Source: Paremcibacter congregatus (GTDB lineage Bacteria; Pseudomonadota; Alphaproteobacteria; Sphingomonadales; Emcibacteraceae). From it: a stretch of 64,000 bases of DNA. The first letter of the stretch is position 1. Each line of letters opens with the position of its first letter. A program made the position numbers and the translations under genes. The stretch covers positions 2,139,501-2,203,500 of the forward strand of contig NZ_CP041025.1 in the NCBI RefSeq assembly GCF_006385135.1, in the 5' to 3' direction. Below the pieces are notes generated by a model, which was not told the DNA's origin, made no database searches, and worked only from the letters and a program-made list of their open reading frames with translations. Below, in pieces: positions 11,614 through 23,569 of this stretch.

Positions 11614-12729
11614 ATGGCGACAAGCGAACCCAAAATAGATCAGGAAGTATCAAACCTTCTTAAACTCGCCCACGGGAAAGAAGCTGGTGGTCGTACTGTA
11701 CTCTTCAGCACCATTACAGACCTCCTGGAACGCCGCCACAACGACCTGTCAAAAACTGAACTCGCTTTAATGTCGGAAATCCTCTCCAAGCTGATCTCCG
11801 ATGTCGAAATGAATATCCGCACCAAGCTGGCGCATAAATTATCCTCGCAAGAAGATGCACCTCTTGATCTGGTTATACTGCTGGCCAATGATCAGATTGA
11901 AGTGGCCAAACCTATTCTCGACCTGAGCACCCTTCTTTCGGACGACGATCTGATCCGCATTATCCGTCACAAAACGGCTCAACACCAATTGAGTATCGCG
12001 AGTCGCAAGCACCTGTCCTCCGGTGTCTGCCGTGAACTGATTTCAATCGGGAACACCAAAACGCTGGTGACCCTTCTGACCAATCATGATGCGCAGATTG
12101 ATAACACATCCCTTGCTGCTCTGGTGGAAAGATCCAAGGAAAGTGTTCCCATTCAGCCGCCGCTTATTGAACGCCCTGACCTGCCGAAAGAAATGGCGGC
12201 AAAAATGTATCAATGGGTCTCGAACAGCCTTCGCGAATCCATTCTGACCAATCTTAACCTGAGTGAAGATGAGCTGTCCAAGCTTCTCGATTCAGCCATT
12301 TCAGACGTCAGCAATGAAGAAGTAGACACGATTACGCGGGAAAAATCGGAAATCCTTCTGGTCAATAAACTTCACAAGGCCGGTAAACTGCAGCCTTCCT
12401 TCCTGATGAAAAGTCTCAATCAGGGACAATCTTCATTGTTTGAAATTGCCTTCTCGAAACTGATTTCCGTTCCCCGTAAAATCATGCGGTCGTTTCTTTA
12501 TGACCGGGGACCGGATGCGCTCGCGGTTTCCTGCTGTGCAGCAGGTATTGATCAGAGCGTTTTTCTGACGATTTATAAACTGACCCGGGAAGCCAAAGAC
12601 ATGAATACCACGCTTTCCGACCATGAAACAGCGACCGCTTTCAGCTATTTCCAGAAAATGGATAAAAAACGCGCCCAGCTAACCATTCAAAAATGGGTTG
12701 CAGAAGCCACCGGCGCCCCTATATTCTAG
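11614..12729 (+). CDS. DUF2336 domain-containing protein
   Basis: This 371-residue, mostly helical, soluble protein matches DUF2336, a family nearly restricted to Alphaproteobacteria. Typical features are the early GRTVLFSTITDLLERR segment, the LMSEILSKLISDVEMNIR helix, and HEAT-like repeats in which each unit ends with a phrase like DLVILLANDQIEVAKPIL. No catalytic motif is visible. Members are often found beside signalling or cell-cycle genes, and a helical-repeat scaffold role is the usual guess. A second copy lies at 15310-16479 on the other strand. The 218 bp upstream is AT-rich and probably carries its promoter. Confidence 0.82.
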   Translation: MATSEPKIDQEVSNLLKLAHGKEAGGRTVLFSTITDLLERRHNDLSKTELALMSEILSKLISDVEMNIRTKLAHKLSSQEDAPLDLVILLANDQIEVAKPILDLSTLLSDDDLIRIIRHKTAQHQLSIASRKHLSSGVCRELISIGNTKTLVTLLTNHDAQIDNTSLAALVERSKESVPIQPPLIERPDLPKEMAAKMYQWVSNSLRESILTNLNLSEDELSKLLDSAISDVSNEEVDTITREKSEILLVNKLHKAGKLQPSFLMKSLNQGQSSLFEIAFSKLISVPRKIMRSFLYDRGPDALAVSCCAAGIDQSVFLTIYKLTREAKDMNTTLSDHETATAFSYFQKMDKKRAQLTIQKWVAEATGAPIF

Positions 12730-13601: not shown

Positions 13602-15308
13602 TTAACTACATAAGTTAAAGGTTACGGTAAATTCCGACCCCTCATTGACCACGCTTCTCAGTTCAATATCTCCGCCCATTTGGCGGGCCAGATGTTGCGA
13701 TATGTGCAACCCGAGGCCCGTGCCTTCTTCTGTACGGGAATATATATTATCCGTTGCCTGATGGAATTTTTCAAACACCAGTTCCTGCTGACTTTCCGGA
13801 ATGCCAATGCCTGTGTCCCAAACCGTTACATTGACCATATCGGTCCCTGCTCTGGTAACGCGCACGCCGATTTTGCCGTGTTCCGGTGTAAATTTGACCG
13901 CATTGCTCAACAGATTGACAAAGATCTGTACCGCGCGACGTTCATCGGCATAAATATAGCAATTCTCGTCAACACGGACATCGGAAATGTCCAGATGTTT
14001 GCGGTTCGCCCGCAGAACGATCAGGTTTTGTGCTTTTTCAACGATTTCCCGCAATGACACTTTATCGCAATCCAGCTTGATTTTTCCGCTTTCCAAAACA
14101 GCAACATCAAGCACATCATTGATCAGGTCCAGCAAATGCCGCCCTGCAGACATGATGTCATCACTATAAGAAACATATTGGGCATTCAGGTCGCCGAAGA
14201 CCTTCATTTTCATGGCCTCGGCAAAACCGATAATCGCATTCAGCGGGGTGCGCAGTTCATGGCTCATGGCCGCCAGAAATTCACTCTTGGCCCCAAGGGC
14301 AGCTTCTGACGCTGCAGATGCCATATCAAGCTGAATATTCTTATTGGTCAACTCTTCCAGAGTATTTTCCAATGATTTTTGAACCGCTAGGGTTTCCAGG
14401 CGCGCCTTGTAATTAACCGTGACATCCATGCCAGCCCCACGATAGCCCTGGAACTCACCGGTTTTTGTGTCAAATATCGGAACCCCGCTCAGATGAATAT
14501 AAACCGGCTCTTCATCGGCACCTTCAATCAGAAATAACCTGTCGCGAAAGGGACGCATAGCATCAAGAAAATGTTCGCAGGTTACAATTTTTCCGGTTTC
14601 ACAGGATTTTAATTCCCCGAAATTTTCAAACCGTTTCCCTTTCATCAGAACCGCTGGCTTGCCGGTGATTGCTGTCAGGCGATCTGACACGAAAGTAATT
14701 TTATAGTCCCGGTCAATTTCCCAATACCAATCGGATGTCGCCCTGGCAAAGTCCCGGAAACGTTGCTGCATCAGGCTTTCATGGCCCAAAGACTGCATCT
14801 TTTCTGTACAGTCAACGTAAGTTGCCCCCACTGCAATCACAATTCCATTGTCATCACATACCGGAAAATGCCGAGATCGGTACTGGCGTAATGCGCCGTT
14901 AAGTTTAATGGTTTCTTCGACAGAGACACTTTGCCGGGTCAGTTGGACTTCATTCAGAATCGCCAACAGGCTTTGCGGAAGTTTATTGTCTTCCCCCTGC
15001 TGCGGCGTGACTGATTCCGTATATTCACAGTGGCTGACCAGATCACGATAGCTTTGATTAACATAAACCAGCTGGCCCGATATCGTGGAAATATAAAGCG
15101 GCACCGACTCGTCAAAACTCATATGCGCAATGAGAGACAGGATTTTGTCCTCAATGGTGACCGGTTGTTTCTTGGATTTCTTGGCGGCCGTATGCGGCAA
15201 GCTTTGCACCAGCTGAAGCGGAATGATCGTCTGCTGCTTCAACTTTGGTACCAATCTTTTACCAACAGACTTTACATCTGCTGCATTTTGGTCCGATCTG
15301 CCAAACAT
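13602..15308 (-). CDS. PAS domain sensor histidine kinase (cytoplasmic)
   Basis: The 568-residue kinase has no clear membrane helix. After an unstructured start there are two PAS-like domains (about 65-165, with VPLYISTISGQLVYVNQSY, and about 190-310, with DWYWEIDRDYKITFVSDRL), a coiled-coil linker, the dimerisation/phosphoacceptor box SHELRTPLNAIIGFAEAM and the ATPase domain with N, G1 (DTGIGIP) and G2 (GTGLGLHIS) boxes. It would sense an intracellular cue and phosphorylate a response regulator not encoded next to it. The gene starts one base after the stop of the DUF2336 gene upstream, so the two are co-transcribed and probably translationally coupled. Confidence 0.88.
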   Translation of the reverse strand: MFGRSDQNAADVKSVGKRLVPKLKQQTIIPLQLVQSLPHTAAKKSKKQPVTIEDKILSLIAHMSFDESVPLYISTISGQLVYVNQSYRDLVSHCEYTESVTPQQGEDNKLPQSLLAILNEVQLTRQSVSVEETIKLNGALRQYRSRHFPVCDDNGIVIAVGATYVDCTEKMQSLGHESLMQQRFRDFARATSDWYWEIDRDYKITFVSDRLTAITGKPAVLMKGKRFENFGELKSCETGKIVTCEHFLDAMRPFRDRLFLIEGADEEPVYIHLSGVPIFDTKTGEFQGYRGAGMDVTVNYKARLETLAVQKSLENTLEELTNKNIQLDMASAASEAALGAKSEFLAAMSHELRTPLNAIIGFAEAMKMKVFGDLNAQYVSYSDDIMSAGRHLLDLINDVLDVAVLESGKIKLDCDKVSLREIVEKAQNLIVLRANRKHLDISDVRVDENCYIYADERRAVQIFVNLLSNAVKFTPEHGKIGVRVTRAGTDMVNVTVWDTGIGIPESQQELVFEKFHQATDNIYSRTEEGTGLGLHISQHLARQMGGDIELRSVVNEGSEFTVTFNLCS

Positions 15309-15309
15309 T

Positions 15310-16479
15310 TTATGTCGTATCCTTTATATCTGACATGGCATTTTGGTACCTAAAATCGCGTTGCCAATGTCTTACGGCTACTTTTGCATTTTTAACTTTA
15401 ATGTCATCATACAGCGATACAATCGATTTGACCAGACTAGTCGCACGCGCCCGTCCCCCGGAACGTGACTGCGCGATCAAAAGAAACAGGGAAGCAAACC
15501 GATCACGGTCCACATCCAGTGACTTCATAATAATAGCCAGACTTTCGCCCGTTCTCTCGCGCATGGATCGCCAGATTATTTTAACATCAAGTCCACACAT
15601 CTCGGACAGGGAGGCGACAAAGAGGTTTACCTTCTCCTGTCGCAAACAGTTTTGCAGGAAAAAGGCGTCCAGTTCATCTGCGGCGGCCATTTCCCGGGCA
15701 AGCTTGAGAGCAGCCAGCATCACACTGTCCGTCACCTCATGCTGGCGTAAGGCTGTTTTTGTCGCCATTTCAAGCAGGTCATCAATAACCACATCATCAA
15801 CGTTATAGTCCAACACGATTTTCCGGCGCAAGGCAGCGGAAACCCACCAATACATACGGTGGGCTAATTCAATCGGTAAATCCTGACGGTTCAGAAGAGG
15901 TTCTTGAAAACGATCCACGTTTTTGGATTCGGCAACAAGATATTTCATGGAAAGCTCTGAAATTTCAGCATTTTCGTTACGGATCAAGGCTTCGACAACA
16001 TCCTCGCTACCATGATCAATCAGTTCACTACTGACCTCATCACTAACGTAACTGCGAATCGCAATCGCCATGCGATGAGCATCCGACCGGTTGCGGATTA
16101 TCTCAATCAGGTCTTCATCCTTCAGGACGCTGCTTTTACGCAACATTGGCCCGGCGATGTCAATTGAATCACTGGCCAGTTGTTTCGCAAGATCAGAAGA
16201 AACCTGATCGGCGTTAGCCAAACGGCTGCTCAGTTCTTTTTTTACGGATTTTTCGACAGAATTAATCAACTTTGCCAAAATATCATTCATCAAAGCCCGT
16301 TCATGTTCCGTCAAGCGCCCTTCAGGGGAGAGAAACATGTCTGAAATATTCTCAACCAGTTCATTTCTAGCTGAAATGGACTTCTGCTGAGCCAACAGGA
16401 TAAGATCTGTGGAAGCTATATTAGAATCAAGCATCCCCATAATTGTCAAATCCACCTTATTTTTATTATCGTTTTTCAT
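15310..16479 (-). CDS. DUF2336 domain-containing protein, second copy
   Basis: This 389-residue helical-repeat protein is paralogous to the product of 11614-12729. The two share segments such as ALMNDILAKLINSVE versus ALMSEILSKLISDVE, DLIEIIRNRSDAHRMAIA versus DLIRIIRHKTAQHQLSIA, and the RPDLP/RQDLP...MYxWVS block. It leads a two-gene unit with the PAS kinase, which suggests DUF2336 acts with that kinase, perhaps as scaffold or partner; this is inference. It is divergent from nothing close: 16480-16614 separates it from the end of the P450 gene on the same strand. Confidence 0.82.
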   Translation of the reverse strand: MKNDNKNKVDLTIMGMLDSNIASTDLILLAQQKSISARNELVENISDMFLSPEGRLTEHERALMNDILAKLINSVEKSVKKELSSRLANADQVSSDLAKQLASDSIDIAGPMLRKSSVLKDEDLIEIIRNRSDAHRMAIAIRSYVSDEVSSELIDHGSEDVVEALIRNENAEISELSMKYLVAESKNVDRFQEPLLNRQDLPIELAHRMYWWVSAALRRKIVLDYNVDDVVIDDLLEMATKTALRQHEVTDSVMLAALKLAREMAAADELDAFFLQNCLRQEKVNLFVASLSEMCGLDVKIIWRSMRERTGESLAIIMKSLDVDRDRFASLFLLIAQSRSGGRARATSLVKSIVSLYDDIKVKNAKVAVRHWQRDFRYQNAMSDIKDTT

Positions 16480-16614: not shown

Positions 16615-18030
16615 TCATGTACAGCTTTTCTCGTCGCCAGCCCCTTCGAAAGTAATGGTCAGATGTTGCGGGAATGGTGTCCCTGCATTATCCATTTGTC
16701 CCGCCGGCCCTGACGCCCGTTTTAAATTGGGTAGTTTTAGAATTTCTTTCAGAAAAACCGGCATTACGGTACGGGAAATTTGTTCCCCAAAGCACTTGTG
16801 AATTCCTCCTCCCCAGAGGATATACTGGTCAGGCGAACGGGAAAGATCAAAGCGCCCCGGCGACGGAATAACCCAAGGATCAAACATCGCCGACAAATTT
16901 GCGGCAAAGACAAAACATCCTTTAGGGATTTCGCGTTGCCGTAGTGTACCTGCCGCAAGAGTATGATCTTCCGCCGCCCGCCGGAAGATAACCGGATTCA
17001 TCGGATTAAAGCGGAAAGCTTCCACAATATAACGGCTGAGCAGTTCATCATCCCCTGACCGTGCCGCCGCCTGTGCCCCGGCCAAGACCTCTGGCCGCGC
17101 CAGTAGCTGATCCAGAACCCGTGTGGTGGCATTGGAGATCGTAGGCAACATCGCCGTTATCATACCAAGAAAGTTATTTCGAATGCCAAGATTATCCATA
17201 CCTGGCATTTCCGCTGTTTGCAGCTTGAGGCACCGACCCAGGACATCATCGCGCATCTCCCCGTTTTTCTGACGTGCGGCGATCGCCTGGTCTAGATATA
17301 CCCGGCACCCGGCAGAAGCCGTCTGCGCCGCCGCAACGATCTCCGCTTCGTCAGAAAAATCAAAAAAGATATAGTGAAACATGGTATGGGTCCAGTCGAT
17401 CAGAACGTCTTCCGACGGACCCGGCGTACCGAAATAATGTCCCACCAACCGCGCCAGAACCGGTTTCGTCAACGTCCTGGGCACATCAAGTTTACCTTGT
17501 GCCGCGACGAGAACAGATGCAATCTCTGCGGATATAAAAGGCGTGATAATCTCATCAATATCATTGCGATTTGCCGCCAGACGCATATTGGAAACATTAT
17601 TGATATAATCGGGCCCCTCCTGCATCCCCAGAAAGAAGTTGTTTCCTTCTGTCAGCAAAGCCATTTTAGGGGCATAAGTGGTCTGAAAAACCTGATCCAG
17701 ATTCATGACTTCCAAGACATCCTCATAAGCCGTGACAAACGCCGTGGCTGAATTATCATAGGCCGTGACAAATCTCTTGTTCACCACAATGGTTGGTATG
17801 AAGGTGCGCAATACTGCCAAAATCGCCCGCATGTGTTCCGGCCGTGCCAATGTGGCAATCAGCCGGTCCTTGAGCATTCCACGCCCAAATAATGCCTTGC
17901 CCCCCGCCCACAGCAGAGTGAGAAAATTCCACACTCCCCATAAAATTACATACACCGACATCACGAGTTGCCGTGCGATATTAAGTATTCCGCCAAAGAT
18001 CGCCCCAAACAGTCCCGCCAGTTCAGACAT
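16615..18030 (-). CDS. atypical cytochrome P450
   Basis: This is a 471-residue haem-thiolate protein. The proximal loop reads ILWGGGIHKCFGEQIS, with Cys413 as haem ligand and Trp for the usual Phe. ExxR is EAFR (337-340) and the PERF-like region is PGRFDLSR (391-398). The I-helix segment (about 287-303, FLGMITAMLPTISNATT) lacks the acid-Thr pair that activates O2 in monooxygenases, a trait of P450s that rearrange hydroperoxides or use peroxide (CYP74, prostacyclin synthase, fungal Ppo C-terminal domains). A hydrophobic N-terminus (about 5-48) could tether it to the membrane. I use ATG 18030, preceded by AAAAGGCGAC, over an upstream in-frame start at 18069. It sits 13 bp after the DyP gene, last in the block. 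Confidence 0.85.
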   Translation of the reverse strand: MSELAGLFGAIFGGILNIARQLVMSVYVILWGVWNFLTLLWAGGKALFGRGMLKDRLIATLARPEHMRAILAVLRTFIPTIVVNKRFVTAYDNSATAFVTAYEDVLEVMNLDQVFQTTYAPKMALLTEGNNFFLGMQEGPDYINNVSNMRLAANRNDIDEIITPFISAEIASVLVAAQGKLDVPRTLTKPVLARLVGHYFGTPGPSEDVLIDWTHTMFHYIFFDFSDEAEIVAAAQTASAGCRVYLDQAIAARQKNGEMRDDVLGRCLKLQTAEMPGMDNLGIRNNFLGMITAMLPTISNATTRVLDQLLARPEVLAGAQAAARSGDDELLSRYIVEAFRFNPMNPVIFRRAAEDHTLAAGTLRQREIPKGCFVFAANLSAMFDPWVIPSPGRFDLSRSPDQYILWGGGIHKCFGEQISRTVMPVFLKEILKLPNLKRASGPAGQMDNAGTPFPQHLTITFEGAGDEKSCT

Positions 18031-18043
18031 TCTGTCGCCTTTT

Positions 18044-19529
18044 CTAAATCGTAGAAACCGCCTTTTCACTCAAGAGTTTCAAAGCCGTCATACTTGGAAT
18101 AAAAAAATACTCGCCCCCCCTGACCGTGACAAAACGCGGGATGTTACGGCAAATAAAGGGAGGCTTCTCACCTTCTGGATCATTTTGGATAACGGCCTGA
18201 TCTGTACCGTCATTAGCGCCTGTTAGAATATCCTTGTCATTGCTCTGATAGAAATCATTGCCATAGTTAATCCAGAGCTGCTGAACAAACTCAAACTGTC
18301 GCTCAATACTGGCGTTAATCGCCATAAATATGATGCCATGTTCATCTTGGGTCCCGCCCAAGCTTGTCAAACGGGGTCGGCGTCCCATACGGCAGACCGC
18401 GCCTTAATATCCGACGTCGGCTGGTCAATTTCCCATCGAAACCAAGACTGCCTCGCGGGTTCGTACGCCGGACATGAGCCCCGAAAGGACAGGTAGCGGC
18501 GTCTTTGTCTCCGGTATAGTTAAAGTCATTATTGCGCGCGGAATCAGCGCGTATCGACGGGTCTTGTCCATATGGGGATAGCTCCACCGGTGTTCCGTCA
18601 AGCCAACGCCCCGCCATTTTGGCCGCCAGAATTTCCCATCCCTTCGCAGCCGTACCATCGGCATGTCTGTATTTCGACATATCCAGCGTTTTTGCATATT
18701 CCTTACCGGTATCGACCAGATACTTCCGGAAAGACGCCACATTCTGATGCAGCTTGCGATACACCATATAGGTGCCATTATCCGTCAACAAGCGTGGCCG
18801 CGGGGCTTCTGGTATTGCCTGGGATTCATCCGCATGGCCTAGAATAAACTCGCCCGCGGCAAGGGGTACCCAGGACCCGTCGGCCAGTTGCTTACCTTTC
18901 CCGGGAATTTTCATGGTCGCAAGGTCTGTCCCACTGAAGGACGGATTGCCAATACCATCATCAAAACCGAAATGTTCCTTGGCGCAGGGCTTACCATTAT
19001 AGAATAAAACGTTGGCATCCTGCTGCCCGAGAACTTTAATGCCCCCCGTACTGTCACACAGGGATTTTAACGCCTCATGAAAATCATTGAGATGCGCCTT
19101 TTCGCTTTCGGTGATTTCTGTAAGAGAGCTCAGATCATTTACGGTGCGCGCGTTGATGGTCAGTAAAATATCCACATGTTCCTGCCAGCATTCATCCCAT
19201 TGATGCGGGCCGCTTTCCCCTTCATCACCCAAAAGGTGAGCCCGGGCCTTCATGCCTTCCGCAAAAGCCAGAGGGAACTGACGCAGGCTACTTTCATTCA
19301 GACCGATGGCTTTTAATCCCTGATAAGAAAAGGCTATATTCGTCGTAACCTCGGGCTTGCCGCCCTTTTCCCACATTTCCCCCGTGGTAATATGAGGAAT
19401 TATTTTCTTGATAAACTCCCGCGCTTTACCTTCCTCCGTGACCTGGAACATGATATACCGCGCCAAAGGAAACCGATAGGCCTGTACGATATTGCCTTGT
19501 ATGTCAGCAAGCTTTAACATCTTACCCAT
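18044..19529 (-). pseudogene. DyP-type haem peroxidase, interrupted by a one-base frameshift
   Basis: Residues 1-390 (from ATG 19529) carry DyP hallmarks: GFDDG (188-192, distal Asp), the proximal haem His in FGAHVRRTNPR (His352), and RRRILRRGLPYG. The frame then runs into a stop at about 18342. The missing C-terminus (GGTQDEHGIIFMAI, IERQFEFVQQLW, PRFVTVRGGEYFF) continues at once in another frame down to the stop at 18044. Removing one C from the CCC run at 18357-18359 restores a normal protein of about 494 residues. The ATG directly follows the TGA of the preceding gene, and P450 follows 13 bp later. A genuine mutation, a sequencing error or recoding are all possible. DyP enzymes use peroxide to oxidise dyes, lignin or unknown natural substrates. 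Confidence 0.85.
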
Positions 19530-20153
19530 TCAGACTTCCCCATTTTCAAACTGATATGTAACACTCCCCCGCGCCGGGGTCGGTGCCGCCTTATAGGTCT
19601 CCATGAACGCCAGAAATTCTTTTTGTATTTCTGCCGCATCCTTCCCCTGATGTTCCGCGACAAAGGCGCTGAACTCCTGCTTCAGCATCAGCCCCCGCAG
19701 CATATTTTCCACGGTCATGTCATTAATGGCGGCAAAGAAAAAGGTCGTTTTTATCTGACATTTATAAATATATTGCTTCCACTTTTCCCGCCCGGATTCA
19801 ATACCGGGAAAGCCTGTGCAATGGCGCCATATTGCTTCTATTTCTTGCGGAATATGATCGAACATGCTGTCAAGATAGTCGCAGAGATCACCATCGAAGT
19901 TACTGTTGAACCACAAATAGCGGGATTTCAGGTTATCTTCCCGCGCCACGGTGCCCTCAAAAAACACATCATCCATAATTGACAGCCGCGCCAAATGGGT
20001 TTCCGGCACCGAACCAAACAAAGACTTCCTGCCCTGCGGCAATGCCCTGAGATGATCCCGCAGCAGATCGACTCCACAATGCCCCTGAACCATATTATTC
20101 CGGATCGGGCATAGCACGGTCAGTCCATATGTTATCCCGTTTTTATTGGCCAT
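19530..20153 (-). CDS. unrecognised protein, paralog of the next upstream gene (FNSNFDG family)
   Basis: This 207-residue soluble protein belongs to no family I can name. Its core LWFNSNFDGDL, then an acidic helix and IWRHCTGFPG, aligns with LLFNSNFNGTW ... IWNWSVKFPG of the neighbouring gene. Both also start with a ThrxxxPI-type strand (GLTVLCPIRNN versus AINVITPIKPW) and end with a helical stretch. ATG 20153 is chosen because a GGGGAAAA Shine-Dalgarno precedes it; the longer frame to 20195 would overlap the upstream gene. The stop TGA abuts the ATG of the peroxidase gene, implying translational coupling and a shared task, perhaps as substrate-binding or carrier partner of the haem enzymes. 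Confidence 0.7.
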   Translation of the reverse strand: MANKNGITYGLTVLCPIRNNMVQGHCGVDLLRDHLRALPQGRKSLFGSVPETHLARLSIMDDVFFEGTVAREDNLKSRYLWFNSNFDGDLCDYLDSMFDHIPQEIEAIWRHCTGFPGIESGREKWKQYIYKCQIKTTFFFAAINDMTVENMLRGLMLKQEFSAFVAEHQGKDAAEIQKEFLAFMETYKAAPTPARGSVTYQFENGEV

Positions 20154-20166
20154 AATTTTCCCCTTT

Positions 20167-20781
20167 TTAATCCGTAGAAGGTTCCGGCGACACACCCAAC
20201 CGCCCCAGATCTTTCTGAACGGTCAGCAACATTTTATGATAGGCCTTCAGGAAATCATCAGGCAGCATGTCGGCCGCCTCATCCGCAAGCTTGCCTGTCT
20301 GCGCCATAATATTTTTCGCCGCCTTGATGTCATTCACCGCCGCCCCGGGATAAGCGTTATAAAAATACTCCACATCAAGCTGATTGTGGCGAATGTAATC
20401 AATAAAGGGGGCTTCCGGCCGCGATCCCGGGAATTTGACGCTCCAATTCCAGATACTGTTCAACCCATCCGGCAAGACATCTGAAAAGGCGTCAATATAT
20501 TGCACCCAGGTGCCATTAAAGTTTGAATTGAACAGCAGGTAATCGTAATTCAGCTCTTCCCGGGGCTGATCTTCACCAAGGTGAGGAAACTCGCCTTTGC
20601 GGATGATGACCCATCTGGCAAAATGAATAAAAGAAAGATTGACCAGGCGTTCTGTCGCCTTCGGCCAGATACCAACAAACCAAAACAAAGCTTTCTGGAC
20701 AAATGTTGTCCACGGTTTTATCGGTGTTATTACGTTAATGGCATAGGTTTTGCCATTAATATTCACAACCCTGTCTCGCAT
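20167..20781 (-). CDS. unrecognised protein, FNSNFDG family, first copy
   Basis: The 204-residue product is related along its whole length to the product of 19530-20153. Visible landmarks: TYAINVITPIKPW (about 12-24), a hydrophobic Trp-rich segment (ALFWFVGIWPKATE, about 31-44), FIHFARWVIIRKG, the shared LLFNSNFNGTWVQYIDAF (about 81-98), WSVKFPG, and FYNAYPGAAVNDI. No signal peptide, metal motif or known catalytic motif is evident. Thirteen bases separate its stop from the next start, so both are made from one message. The duplication within a peroxidase/P450 operon suggests paired subunits or two related substrates. Confidence 0.7.
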   Translation of the reverse strand: MRDRVVNINGKTYAINVITPIKPWTTFVQKALFWFVGIWPKATERLVNLSFIHFARWVIIRKGEFPHLGEDQPREELNYDYLLFNSNFNGTWVQYIDAFSDVLPDGLNSIWNWSVKFPGSRPEAPFIDYIRHNQLDVEYFYNAYPGAAVNDIKAAKNIMAQTGKLADEAADMLPDDFLKAYHKMLLTVQKDLGRLGVSPEPSTD

Positions 20782-20825
20782 ATGCCTCCACCCTATAATT
20801 TACCGGCTTTTTACCCCGATCCTGA

Positions 20826-21014
20826 TTAGGTATTTAAGAAATAGGCTCCATTAATAATCAGACACACCAGGCCGACAAGGAACGCCTTGACGAATAACGA
20901 CCTGTCATCCGACATGTTGAATTGCACGCTGAAAATAAAGATATAAGCCAATACCACAAACAAAATGATGGCTGTAATTAACCCAAAAAACAGTAACGGC
21001 ATATGGTTCCCCAA
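20826..21014 (-). CDS. small two-helix membrane protein
   Basis: This 62-residue frame consists almost entirely of two hydrophobic helices (LLFFGLITAIILFVVLAYIFIF and FVKAFLVGLVCLIINGAYF, interrupted here by a polar turn MSDDRS). The start could be ATG 21014 or, four codons later, ATG 21002. It lies 44 bp upstream of the first FNSNFDG gene and 106 bp after the hybrid kinase gene, on the same strand, so it probably belongs to the block. No family is recognised; a membrane anchor or small inhibitor for the block's proteins is possible but unproven. Confidence 0.45.
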   Translation of the reverse strand: MGNHMPLLFFGLITAIILFVVLAYIFIFSVQFNMSDDRSLFVKAFLVGLVCLIINGAYFLNT

Positions 21015-21120
21015 CCTGTTCCTCTGTTATATACTTCCCCAAGTATCAAAATCTTTTCCCAAGACTAATATTAGAATACACTGTTTTAGATATTTCTCAA
21101 ATGGTTTTACCACTATGACA

Positions 21121-22911
21121 TTATATCTGCCATTCTTCTCCACGAACCAGATATGTCACCATACTTCTCAATTTAGCCGGTTGTACAGGTTTTTGTAAAA
21201 CAGACAATCCCTTTGTACGTAGTTGCTCCACGACCCGGTCGTCTCCATCCCCTGTCATCACGATACCCGGCAGGGAATGACCATGTAATTCCTCAATGGC
21301 GGCAACGGCCTCTATACCGGACCCGTCCCGTAATATGATATCCGAAATAACAAGGTCTGGATCGAAACCGTCAGTCTTCAGAAAGGCCAGAGCATCCTCA
21401 ATTGTCGTGAAATCCGCAACCTGATGGCCCCAGTGCCGCATGATGCCGCTGATGCTTTCCCGTGACGTATCCTCATTTGTAAGAACAATCGTGCGTGCAC
21501 AGGTATCTCCCGACCAGATGTTCAACTCCGGCGTTTCAGACACCACTTTAGACAAATTTCCTTGCGGAACCCTGATGCTAAAGACCGACCCGATCCCGAC
21601 ATCAGAATGCATCATCAGGGGATGATCCAGCAACCGGCTTAGGCCGTCCACAATCGACAAGCCAAGCCCCAGGCCGCGGCCGTTTTTCTGATGATCACCT
21701 TTGACCTGGAAAAACTCCCGGAAAATATCCTGCCTGTCGGCTTCCGATATCCCGGCGCCGCTGTCTGCGATATGGATCATTACATACGCGCTTTCGACTT
21801 CCCACGAAACATTCACATAACCTTTATCCGTATAGCGCACCGCATTACTGATCAGATTACGAATAATCCGGCCCAACATGTCCTTGTCGCTATAAACCGT
21901 TTGTGAGCACGGTTTGAAGTTAAGCCGCAAGCCTTTCTCTTTGGCCTGCTCACTGAATTCCTGCATGATTTCGACTAAAATTTCATTGAGAATAAAATGC
22001 GTCCGATGCGGTTCAATCCCCCCGGACTCAATTTTAGAGATATCAAGTAGAGACCCAAGAAGATTGCGCAGCGCTTCTGATGTTTGCGCCACTTTTTTGA
22101 CCAAGTCCTGAATTTTGACCGGATTTTTTTCGTGCATCATGGCCTCAACAAAGAATCCCATTGCATGCAGGGGCTGCCTCAAATCGTGGCTTGCCGCCGC
22201 CAAAAACCGTGACTTGGCTTCGTTATTGTCATCGGCGAGACTGCGGGCCATATCCGCCTTGCTTTTTTCGTGCCTCAAGCGTTCAATAAGTTCCTTGTTT
22301 TCCAGAACCAGATTAATCCCTTTCAGGACATTGACCTGGGCCATGCGACTGTTGAACAGATTGACCCCCAGGAACAGAAACAATAAAATACCAATGGCAA
22401 CCAGCATCTCATTCCCGTCGAATAAACAGCGTATTGCAAGCGGCGCAACACAGGGAATGGCATACGCATAATAGGCGGGCTTATATATCGACAGATAGGA
22501 CACGGATCCTGCCACCATGCCACACAACAAGGTCGCGGATAAAATCAGGACGAAGGGATTGTCCGAAATCGGCAGAACTATACCGATAAATCCCCAAATC
22601 ACCCCAGAAACAAAAGAAAACCCAACGAAAAATCGCGCGTGACTGACCACATTATCAACGGTTATCTTTTCACGTTTTACACTGGAATAGTGCCAAAATC
22701 GCACGCCGGAATAAAGCGCCACCCCGGCAAACCATAACAACGGAATTTGATTGGGAACATCCCCGAGAAGGATTACCGCGATAATGCCCGCCGTGACGAA
22801 GTTCAACCCTGTCATTGCGGGGATTTGTTTCACAAGCATCGAGACCTGTTCCACAAAAATATACTTATCTTTTATTCCACCGCCCATACAAGACCCGTTA
22901 TCTAAAAACAC
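21121..22911 (-). CDS. hybrid sensor histidine kinase with C-terminal receiver
   Basis: The 596-residue protein has five or six membrane helices in residues 25-215 with little periplasmic sequence, a coiled linker, the phosphoacceptor box SHDLRQPLHAMGFFVEAM (about 253), the ATPase domain with DSGAGI and GLGLGLSIV, and a receiver domain (about 465-590) with DLVISDIILRDGSG holding the phosphoacceptor Asp. The SHDLRQPLHA box and receiver are typical of NodV/RpfC-like hybrid kinases that sense through or within the membrane. A GTG start (22911) and ATG 22887 are both possible. The response regulator gene ends 37 bp upstream, so they form a pair; the haem-enzyme genes follow downstream. Confidence 0.88.
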   Translation of the reverse strand: MFLDNGSCMGGGIKDKYIFVEQVSMLVKQIPAMTGLNFVTAGIIAVILLGDVPNQIPLLWFAGVALYSGVRFWHYSSVKREKITVDNVVSHARFFVGFSFVSGVIWGFIGIVLPISDNPFVLILSATLLCGMVAGSVSYLSIYKPAYYAYAIPCVAPLAIRCLFDGNEMLVAIGILLFLFLGVNLFNSRMAQVNVLKGINLVLENKELIERLRHEKSKADMARSLADDNNEAKSRFLAAASHDLRQPLHAMGFFVEAMMHEKNPVKIQDLVKKVAQTSEALRNLLGSLLDISKIESGGIEPHRTHFILNEILVEIMQEFSEQAKEKGLRLNFKPCSQTVYSDKDMLGRIIRNLISNAVRYTDKGYVNVSWEVESAYVMIHIADSGAGISEADRQDIFREFFQVKGDHQKNGRGLGLGLSIVDGLSRLLDHPLMMHSDVGIGSVFSIRVPQGNLSKVVSETPELNIWSGDTCARTIVLTNEDTSRESISGIMRHWGHQVADFTTIEDALAFLKTDGFDPDLVISDIILRDGSGIEAVAAIEELHGHSLPGIVMTGDGDDRVVEQLRTKGLSVLQKPVQPAKLRSMVTYLVRGEEWQI

Positions 22912-22948
22912 TTCTCCTCAGGCACCAGCAACCTGACATGACGCACTG

Positions 22949-23569
22949 TTAATATGGTGAAACCAGTCCGTCCTGAAGGGCGGCAAAGGCCGCCTCAGTC
23001 CTATTATTCACTTTTAGTATTTGAAAAATAGCTGAAATATGCACCCGCACCGTATTATCGGCAATGCCAAGGTTCTGGGCGATTTCCTTGTTGGATTTAC
23101 CTTGTGAAATTAATCGCAGGATTTCGCTTTGACGTGTTGTGAGGACAACCTTGGACCGGCTATGATGGTCCGCCCCATACAGTACATTATCCGGCACATA
23201 TCGTCCTCCTTTCAGGATCAGTTGCAACGCCTGAATCATAATTTCACTGCTCAGGGTTTTAGGAATATACCCCATCACACCGAGTTCCAACGCCCTTTTG
23301 ATCAGGTTATAATCATCGGATCCGGATAAAAACACGATCGGGGCACTAGGGTCCAGTCGGCGAAACCCCTGCAGTCCATCCATTCCGGAAATACCGGGCA
23401 GATCAACATCCAGCAAAATAAGATCGAAACCGTCATCTGTTTCCATCAACTTATAGGCATCTTCACAGGATCCACATTCGCGGATGTCCACCACGTCCGC
23501 CAGCTGGCGTAGAACGAACTTCAGGCCGTCTCGGAACAGAACATGGTCATCAACCAGCAAAATCTTCAT
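22949..23569 (-). CDS. NarL/LuxR-family response regulator
   Basis: The 206-residue two-domain regulator has a receiver (1-about 120) with acidic pocket DDH, phosphoacceptor Asp in LILLDVDLPGISG and conserved Lys in YIPKTL, and a LuxR-type helix-turn-helix (about 140-200) with LTTRQSEILRLISQGKSN and NTVRVHISAIFQIL. It is the first gene of the minus-strand block and is followed by the hybrid kinase, its likely partner. It would control promoters upstream of itself or of 21014. The 699 bp before it are noncoding and hold inverted repeats that might be its sites. Confidence 0.9.
   Translation of the reverse strand: MKILLVDDHVLFRDGLKFVLRQLADVVDIRECGSCEDAYKLMETDDGFDLILLDVDLPGISGMDGLQGFRRLDPSAPIVFLSGSDDYNLIKRALELGVMGYIPKTLSSEIMIQALQLILKGGRYVPDNVLYGADHHSRSKVVLTTRQSEILRLISQGKSNKEIAQNLGIADNTVRVHISAIFQILKVNNRTEAAFAALQDGLVSPY

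Follow-up and report, generated by a model that had tools for sequence, protein, structure and literature searches.

Four consecutive genes in a 64,000-nucleotide stretch of the Paremcibacter congregatus genome (NCBI RefSeq assembly GCF_006385135.1, contig NZ_CP041025.1, positions 2,139,501 to 2,203,500 of the forward strand; hereafter the window) are strongly supported by sequence comparison as a conserved module. They encode two paralogous proteins, here called para1 and para2, a DyP-type haem peroxidase and a cytochrome P450. The recurrence of this set, i. e. para-para-DyP, often together with a second haem enzyme, across distant bacteria suggests an undescribed bacterial machine for lipid oxidation. 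DyP and the second haem enzyme would act in it one after the other in a lipid-peroxide pathway, a reading to which we assign a probability of roughly 0.5.

The comparison covers 72 loci (designated by L numbers) that were gathered by para homology in sets of 26, 5, 12 and 19 loci and 10 plasmid regions, and scored with para, DyP and P450 profiles. Close relatives among them (L100/L122; L103/L104; L101/L102/L123/L124; L039-L042) are not independent, and L126 (H6) as well as the plasmid records H7 and H8 stand outside the count. DyP adjoins or is fused to para in 71 of the 72 loci, the exception (L068) running off its contig. Each of the 26 loci in the first set has two para genes, while a single para domain is found, for example, in L063, L097, L102, L114, L115 and L117. 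A P450 occurs in 42 loci, always beside or fused to the core. The order para-para-DyP-P450 of the window is also that of the Acidobacteria; in L039-L042 and L061 the P450 comes first (P450-para-para-DyP), and in L022-L025 and L066 it lies on the opposite strand.

Several loci join these parts in one chain. DyP-P450 fusions are encoded in L011, a metagenome-assembled genome (MAG), and in L063, and para-DyP fusions in L065, L070, L102, L123 and L124. Seven loci (L099, L103-L108) encode P450-para-para-DyP as one protein of 1,408-1,535 amino acids (aa) by open reading frame (ORF) calls; that of L099 (1,423 aa, annotated as 'cytochrome P450') is located on a complete plasmid, that of L107 in a one-contig genome. 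WP_276121424.1 of Pararhizobium qamdonense is an example of such a one-chain protein. The para-DyP fusion of L070 (6926-10534) carries in addition an unassigned C-terminal region of ~470 aa. Co-occurrence, shuffled orders with retained content and recurrent fusions provide strong comparative evidence for a shared function of the module genes. The search for the gene set in other genomes, proposed as a check in the original prediction, a sequence-only note on this DNA, was strongly positive: para, DyP and mostly a P450 are found together across phyla, in changed orders.

The spread of the module is patchy. A para1 query of genome contigs returned 26 loci, assigned by record titles to Acidobacteria, Gemmatimonadetes, several alphaproteobacterial groups and a Solirubrobacteraceae bacterium, and para1 furthermore matches 13 plasmid records. 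Among kin, para matches were found in 7 of 118 genomes (own genome included) and in none of 15 from the same genus, several of which are incomplete. The para family profile detected 12 of 387 genomes of the class and 24 of 397 of the phylum, the own genome being included in both. The literature searched, in which most subscription journals are not represented, yielded no publication that pairs DyP with a P450 or a catalase-like protein.

The second haem enzyme is the variable part: a P450 in 42 loci, a catalase-like protein in 8 that all lack the P450, and neither in 22. The catalase-like protein lies beside the core in seven loci (L097, L112, L114-L118) and is fused to DyP in L119. The representatives of L097, L112 and L114 exceed the cut-off of Pfam Catalase; those of L115-L119 are connected with L112 or L118 through BLAST alone, and L115-L118 are without a Pfam match at the thresholds used. 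In an alignment judged by eye, the 'HAK' stretch corresponding to catalase contains His in L112, L115 and L117, and Asn in L116, L118 and the L119 fusion. Eight genomes with P450-less loci could be searched for a P450 of the module clade: one encodes a strong match elsewhere (G833, 2.2e-108), two encode weak ones, and in five of the eight none was detected at E 1e-20. On a DyP tree of 69 rows, calculated by a quick method with long-branch warnings and without L005, L010, L098 and the C-terminal part of the window DyP, the state of this slot changes at least 19 times, and at least 4 times among P450 and catalase-like rows only. The sole use made of this tree is the conclusion that P450 and catalase-like protein appear to alternate more than once. 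According to the part of PMC13049297 drawn on here, the haem enzymes known to rearrange fatty-acid hydroperoxides are of two kinds, P450s (CYP74, fungal dioxygenase (DOX)-CYP) and catalase-like proteins such as the catalase-related lyase that acts after the Nostoc 10S-DOX.

In the window, the four genes stand at the end of a block of seven genes on the minus strand (23569-16615), all of which recur in the same order in L038, the nearest relative, which is from the same family:

22949-23569, minus strand: LuxR/NarL-type response regulator, 206 aa (Pfam Response_reg 2.7e-23, GerE 2.5e-19; 68% identity to L038)
21121-22911, minus strand: hybrid sensor histidine kinase with receiver domain, 596 aa, C-terminal part NahK/ErcS-like (Pfam HATPase_c, HisKA, Response_reg)
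20826-21014, minus strand: small membrane protein, 62 aa, or 58 aa if starting at ATG 21002 (ORF; hydropathy peak 2.93)
20167-20781, minus strand: para1, 204 aa, FNSNF(N/D)G family, outside any Pfam family (AlphaFold; dimeric alpha/beta-barrel-like fold predicted)
19530-20153, minus strand: para2, paralogue of para1; ORF from 20195, likely start ATG 20153 (26% identity to para1; AlphaFold)
18342-19529, minus strand: DyP-type peroxidase, first frame, with catalytic Asp/His/Arg and premature stop (Pfam DyP_N 1.1e-13)
18044-18388, minus strand: DyP C-terminus, continued in the +1 frame (TIGR01413 2.1e-07, C-terminal end of the profile; 71% identity to the L038 DyP C-terminus)
16615-18030, minus strand: cytochrome P450 with a hydrophobic segment at its N-terminus and Pro in place of the I-helix acid; ORF from 18069, likely ATG 18030 (Pfam p450 1.2e-09)

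The ORFs and the Pfam and NCBIfam matches thus agree with the seven same-strand genes that had been described from the sequence alone. The gaps of 0-13 bp given there for the last four genes are likewise recovered (13, 0 and 13 bp between ORF ends), provided that para2 and the P450 start at their second in-frame ATGs (20153 and 18030).

The one correction to this description of the block concerns the DyP gene. Its identity is supported by the DyP_N match and the catalytic residues, but it is not one intact gene. The reading frame from 19529 ends at 18342, and the C-terminal ~105 residues follow in the +1 frame at 18388-18044, which places the frameshift within the overlap 18342-18388. The DyP of L038 is a single open frame of 494 aa through the break site, and a DNA alignment with it reveals one extra base in the window gene. 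A programmed frameshift is therefore not favoured. The break may be either an assembly or sequencing error or a recent mutation; should it exist in the genome itself, this strain would have a broken DyP step. The match of the window DyP to TIGR01413 (3.3e-20) stays under the curated cut-off. The columns of the DyP alignment that we take to be catalytic, i. e. the Asp of GxxDG, the proximal His and the distal Arg, are almost invariant among rows with letters from 71 loci (Asp 69/69, His 70/70, Arg 68/69 with Gln in L097), and the window DyP carries all three residues in its first frame, ahead of the break. Elsewhere, the DyP of a Rhizobium ruizarguesonis plasmid (L098, 7017-10006) is likewise split across frames, and that of an acidobacterial MAG (L010, 3549-4577) is short at its N-terminus. 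DyP peroxidases are best known for acting on dyes and lignin, and their natural substrates are unclear.

The window P450 clearly belongs to its family (37.9 bits against a Pfam cut-off of 22.8) and has a hydrophobic N-terminus (hydropathy 1.92). Its alignment comprises 43 rows including the window, 42 of which have letters at the active-site columns, L008 being cut short. The Cys haem ligand is present in all 42 rows. At the I-helix acid position, in contrast, 38 rows including the window have Pro, two Asp (L062, L065), one Ala (L120) and one Gly (L063), and the following residue is Thr in 35, Gln in 6 and Val in 1. The acid-alcohol pair typical of monooxygenases has hence lost its acid in most members and kept its Thr in the majority, in line with the earlier remark that likened the I-helix to that of hydroperoxide-rearranging enzymes. 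PMC13049297, in the part drawn on, describes Pro in motifs of substrate recognition site 4 (SRS4) of the fungal 9-allene oxide synthase (9-AOS), as well as P450s able to cleave hydroperoxides without a redox partner. An HxCxG form of the Cys loop was dropped as a mark of DOX-type P450s because the same source gives it as the form general in bacteria. The P450s of L120 and L121 are divergent. As regards kinship to hydroperoxide-isomerising P450s (CYP74, CYP8A, fungal DOX-CYP), the closest named entries among the best 60 of 133 PDB sequence matches, many of which have generic names, are biosynthetic P450s of bacteria, CxnD and PikC among them. In ten annotated plasmid regions, looked through without a systematic search, neither a ferredoxin nor a reductase gene came to notice next to the cassette, which counts in favour of the lipid-peroxide reading.

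The para proteins were described in the original prediction as two paralogues without a recognisable family, and so they remain: they share 26% identity, neither reaches a Pfam or NCBIfam cut-off, the best Pfam match among 38 family members is E 0.0059 in a single member, and neither of their profiles finds a sequence relative in the PDB at E below 0.1. A sequence relationship of para1 to a solved protein was rejected on the same grounds. Structure prediction had been suggested for both. The AlphaFold models (pLDDT 84.2 for para1 and 80.6 for para2) are predicted to adopt dimeric alpha/beta-barrel-like (ferredoxin-like) folds, with VIA Z scores of 7.6 to L-fucose mutarotase for para1 (root-mean-square deviation 3.4, 102 aligned residues) and 8.5 to the same fold for para2 (2.7, 100 residues); Z scores near 8 are modest. 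Both VIA lists are headed by mutarotases, the TcmF2 cyclase and the ABM family, with some helical rows lower in that of para1, and a polyketide decarboxylase is a further fold match. Foldseek returned for para1 a best E of 0.034 and nothing at 0.001. The barrel domain of DyP itself, considered as the nearest fold, is not among the best 50 matches of either protein. The proteins are about 200 aa long with a helical C-terminal part, and an alignment by eye shows a hydrophobic insert in para2 of several alphaproteobacteria.

From these data we infer a lipid substrate, an order of steps and a role for the para proteins. The last four genes would form one multi-enzyme module for the two-step oxidation of unsaturated lipids, consisting of para1, para2, DyP and the second haem enzyme, which in the window is a P450 with a membrane anchor. 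With the para barrels holding or serving it, DyP could use H2O2 or O2 to make or handle a lipid peroxide or radical. The P450, elsewhere the catalase-like protein, may then rearrange or cleave this peroxide into a product of oxylipin type, with no need for a redox partner. In loci in which the peroxide does not come from DyP, an adjoining lipoxygenase or alpha-dioxygenase-like peroxidase might take over this part, with a patatin freeing the acyl chain. The para proteins could serve as scaffold, cyclase or isomerase. A two-step haem route of peroxidase and P450, loosely similar to the Ppo fusions of fungi, had already been envisaged before. It gains Rosetta-stone support from the DyP-P450 and P450-para-para-DyP single proteins, but the conserved unit proves to be para plus DyP, and the P450 is one of two alternatives.

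The lipid-peroxide pathway is favoured because the two families alternating as second enzyme are those known for the rearrangement of fatty-acid hydroperoxides, because the I-helix acid is lost in most of the P450s, and because the additional neighbours present in a few loci are enzymes that form fatty-acid peroxides or liberate acyl chains. In a Tabrizicola MAG (L021), a lipoxygenase (PF00305 6.6e-08; PDB 15-lipoxygenase 8.7e-10) and a peroxidase of the animal haem type (PF03098) are encoded directly upstream on the other strand. PF03098 peroxidases are also found in L026 and L119. The best PDB match of the latter is a fatty acid alpha-oxidase (8.3e-57), and L119 (3182-11390) unites this alpha-dioxygenase-like peroxidase with a catalase-like domain fused to DyP, another such domain encoded by a gene of its own, and a para-para protein. 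In L026, genes for a GMC oxidoreductase, the PF03098 peroxidase and a patatin precede para1 on the same strand, and a patatin gene lies ahead of the P450 in L039-L042, which makes five patatin loci in total. A GMC oxidoreductase also neighbours L116 and L118, and a RoxA-like cytochrome is encoded close to L113. In 289 alphaproteobacterial genomes, lipoxygenase and PF03098 have base rates of 1 and 22, respectively. An oleate-hydratase-type (MCRA) match among 74 flanking ORFs is not assigned to a particular locus and does not enter the argument.

Several observations weigh against this pathway. Such lipid-type neighbours are occasional: the lipoxygenase is near one locus, PF03098 near three, and the patatin is confined to L026 and four loci of one genus. 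PF00305 is absent from 12 of 12 module genomes, in a search that detects the lipoxygenase of G835 and is silent in control genomes, and PF03098 is absent from 11 of 12, the window genome included. In these genomes, DyP itself or an outside source must therefore supply the peroxide, which would be an unusual role for a DyP. Furthermore, the window DyP is frameshifted, and 22 of the 72 loci lack both kinds of second enzyme, two of them (L005, L068) ending inside the cassette. Four of the 42 P450s lack the Pro; the Asp of L062 and L065 looks canonical, and the Gly of L063 belongs to a DyP-P450 fusion. Since the Thr is kept in 35 P450s, these may use O2. Finally, the para-DyP loci of Rhizobium plasmids lie among genes for a nuclease, heparin lyase, CHAT and S8 peptidase proteins and restriction, not among lipid genes. 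L101, L102, L123, L124 and L126 from Rhizobium and Sinorhizobium plasmids contain para-DyP without P450 (fused in L102, L123 and L124; L126 was not profiled), and these loci possibly represent a different use of the core.

The same enzymes could conceivably serve in defence, with DyP reducing and the P450 or catalase-like protein decomposing lipid hydroperoxides under oxidative stress, without a dedicated signal being made. The pairing of a haem peroxidase with a P450 or catalase-like protein, the appearance of the latter in place of the P450, and the KatG and Fur genes close to the Granulicella module, which also has a TonB receptor nearby, would be compatible with this role. Yet the restriction to 12 of 387 class genomes and the elaborate fused architectures suit a specialised pathway better, and lipoxygenase and PF03098 neighbours make peroxides instead of removing them, so that we consider defence unlikely. 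A tailoring function in secondary metabolism, in which the para proteins would be barrel-type polyketide cyclases or ABM oxygenases and DyP and P450 would perform oxidative couplings on an aromatic or terpenoid, could draw on the fold matches to the TcmF2 cyclase, polyketide decarboxylase and ABM proteins and on the P450 matches to biosynthetic enzymes such as CxnD and PikC among the matches listed. Fold likeness alone shows no function, however; no synthase gene was noticed beside ten annotated plasmid loci or among 25 of 72 neighbour Pfam families, and the recurring non-core neighbours are lipid-related or oxidoreductases. This function hence appears improbable as well.

That the genes are independent oxidative functions clustered loosely or by chance can be dismissed almost entirely. 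The regulators are not kept beside the core and 22 loci lack a second enzyme, which would be in keeping with such clustering, but the near-constant presence of DyP, the rearranged orders and the repeated one-chain fusions speak against it, and for para plus DyP it is already contradicted. Returning to the lipid-peroxide pathway, a more ambitious version would be a new kind of bacterial oxylipin synthase, in which DyP takes the role of a cyclooxygenase or lipoxygenase, is assisted by dedicated barrel partners and passes a lipid peroxide on to an isomerase that may be either a P450 or a catalase-like protein, in some bacteria within one chain of 1,400-1,500 residues. This version is possible and is put forward tentatively.

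The upstream genes are a local feature. Regulator, kinase and small protein adjoin the core in one of 72 loci (L038), and no comparable kinase or regulator was found next to the core in the remaining 71; similar proteins occur at greater distance within L010, L025, L066, L105 and L106. The two-component regulator was thus rejected as a piece of the conserved unit beyond L038, and the signal control proposed in the original prediction applies only locally. The hybrid kinase matches NF041832 (2.1e-94) under the curated cut-off of that model and is 46% identical to its L038 counterpart, and the small protein, with a clear membrane helix, has a 37.5% identical homologue at the same position in L038. 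Directly downstream of the P450, a DUF2336/SpbR-like protein (15310-16479) and a PAS histidine kinase (13602-15308) are encoded on the minus strand. A second DUF2336-sized protein of 371 aa is found at 11614-12729 on the plus strand.

If the proposed pathway is correct, DyP peroxidases would have a defined set of physiological partners, and bacteria would possess a counterpart of eicosanoid and jasmonate synthesis that relies on other enzymes. The repeated exchange of P450 and catalase-like protein within the same gene context could then be read as a natural experiment on how hydroperoxide chemistry converges. The one-chain versions make the idea directly testable from a single expressed protein.

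Among known systems, the fungal dioxygenase-P450 fusions (linoleate diol and allene oxide synthases, Ppo), as described in the part of PMC13049297 drawn on, resemble the module in that a single chain carries both a P450 and a domain of haem peroxidase type (as in L011, L063, L099 and L103-L108) and in a non-canonical P450 I-helix, the fungal 9-AOS likewise having Pro in SRS4. They differ in their partner, a dioxygenase of the cyclooxygenase family (PF03098), whereas the module employs DyP and para proteins. In the window, these are encoded by separate genes in a genome without PF03098, and a fusion of PF03098 to a P450 as in Ppo is accordingly not found there. Among the matches listed, the module P450s show no special sequence kinship to fungal DOX-P450s. 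The Nostoc linoleate 10S-dioxygenase with its catalase-related hydroperoxide lyase (Brash 2014, as cited in PMC13049297) is a bacterial case of a PF03098 enzyme beside a catalase-like protein, similar to L119, but, as described in the same part of PMC13049297, lacks DyP, para proteins and the P450 alternative. In the coral fusions of catalase-related allene oxide synthase or hydroperoxide lyase with lipoxygenase, as presented in the part of PMC5617202 drawn on, a catalase-like haem domain is also fused to an oxygenase, so that one part makes and the other rearranges the hydroperoxide. Their oxygenase is a lipoxygenase, while the catalase-like domain of L119 is fused to DyP.

Within the DyP-type peroxidases (PF20628/PF21105, TIGR01413), the module enzyme is a member with retained catalytic residues that is set apart by its partners, the para proteins and a second haem enzyme. 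The para proteins, in turn, share their predicted fold (Z up to 7.6 and 8.5) with dimeric alpha/beta-barrel proteins such as ABM proteins, TcmF2-like cyclases and mutarotases, and differ from these in matching no sequence family, in their length of ~200 aa and in their C-terminal helical part.

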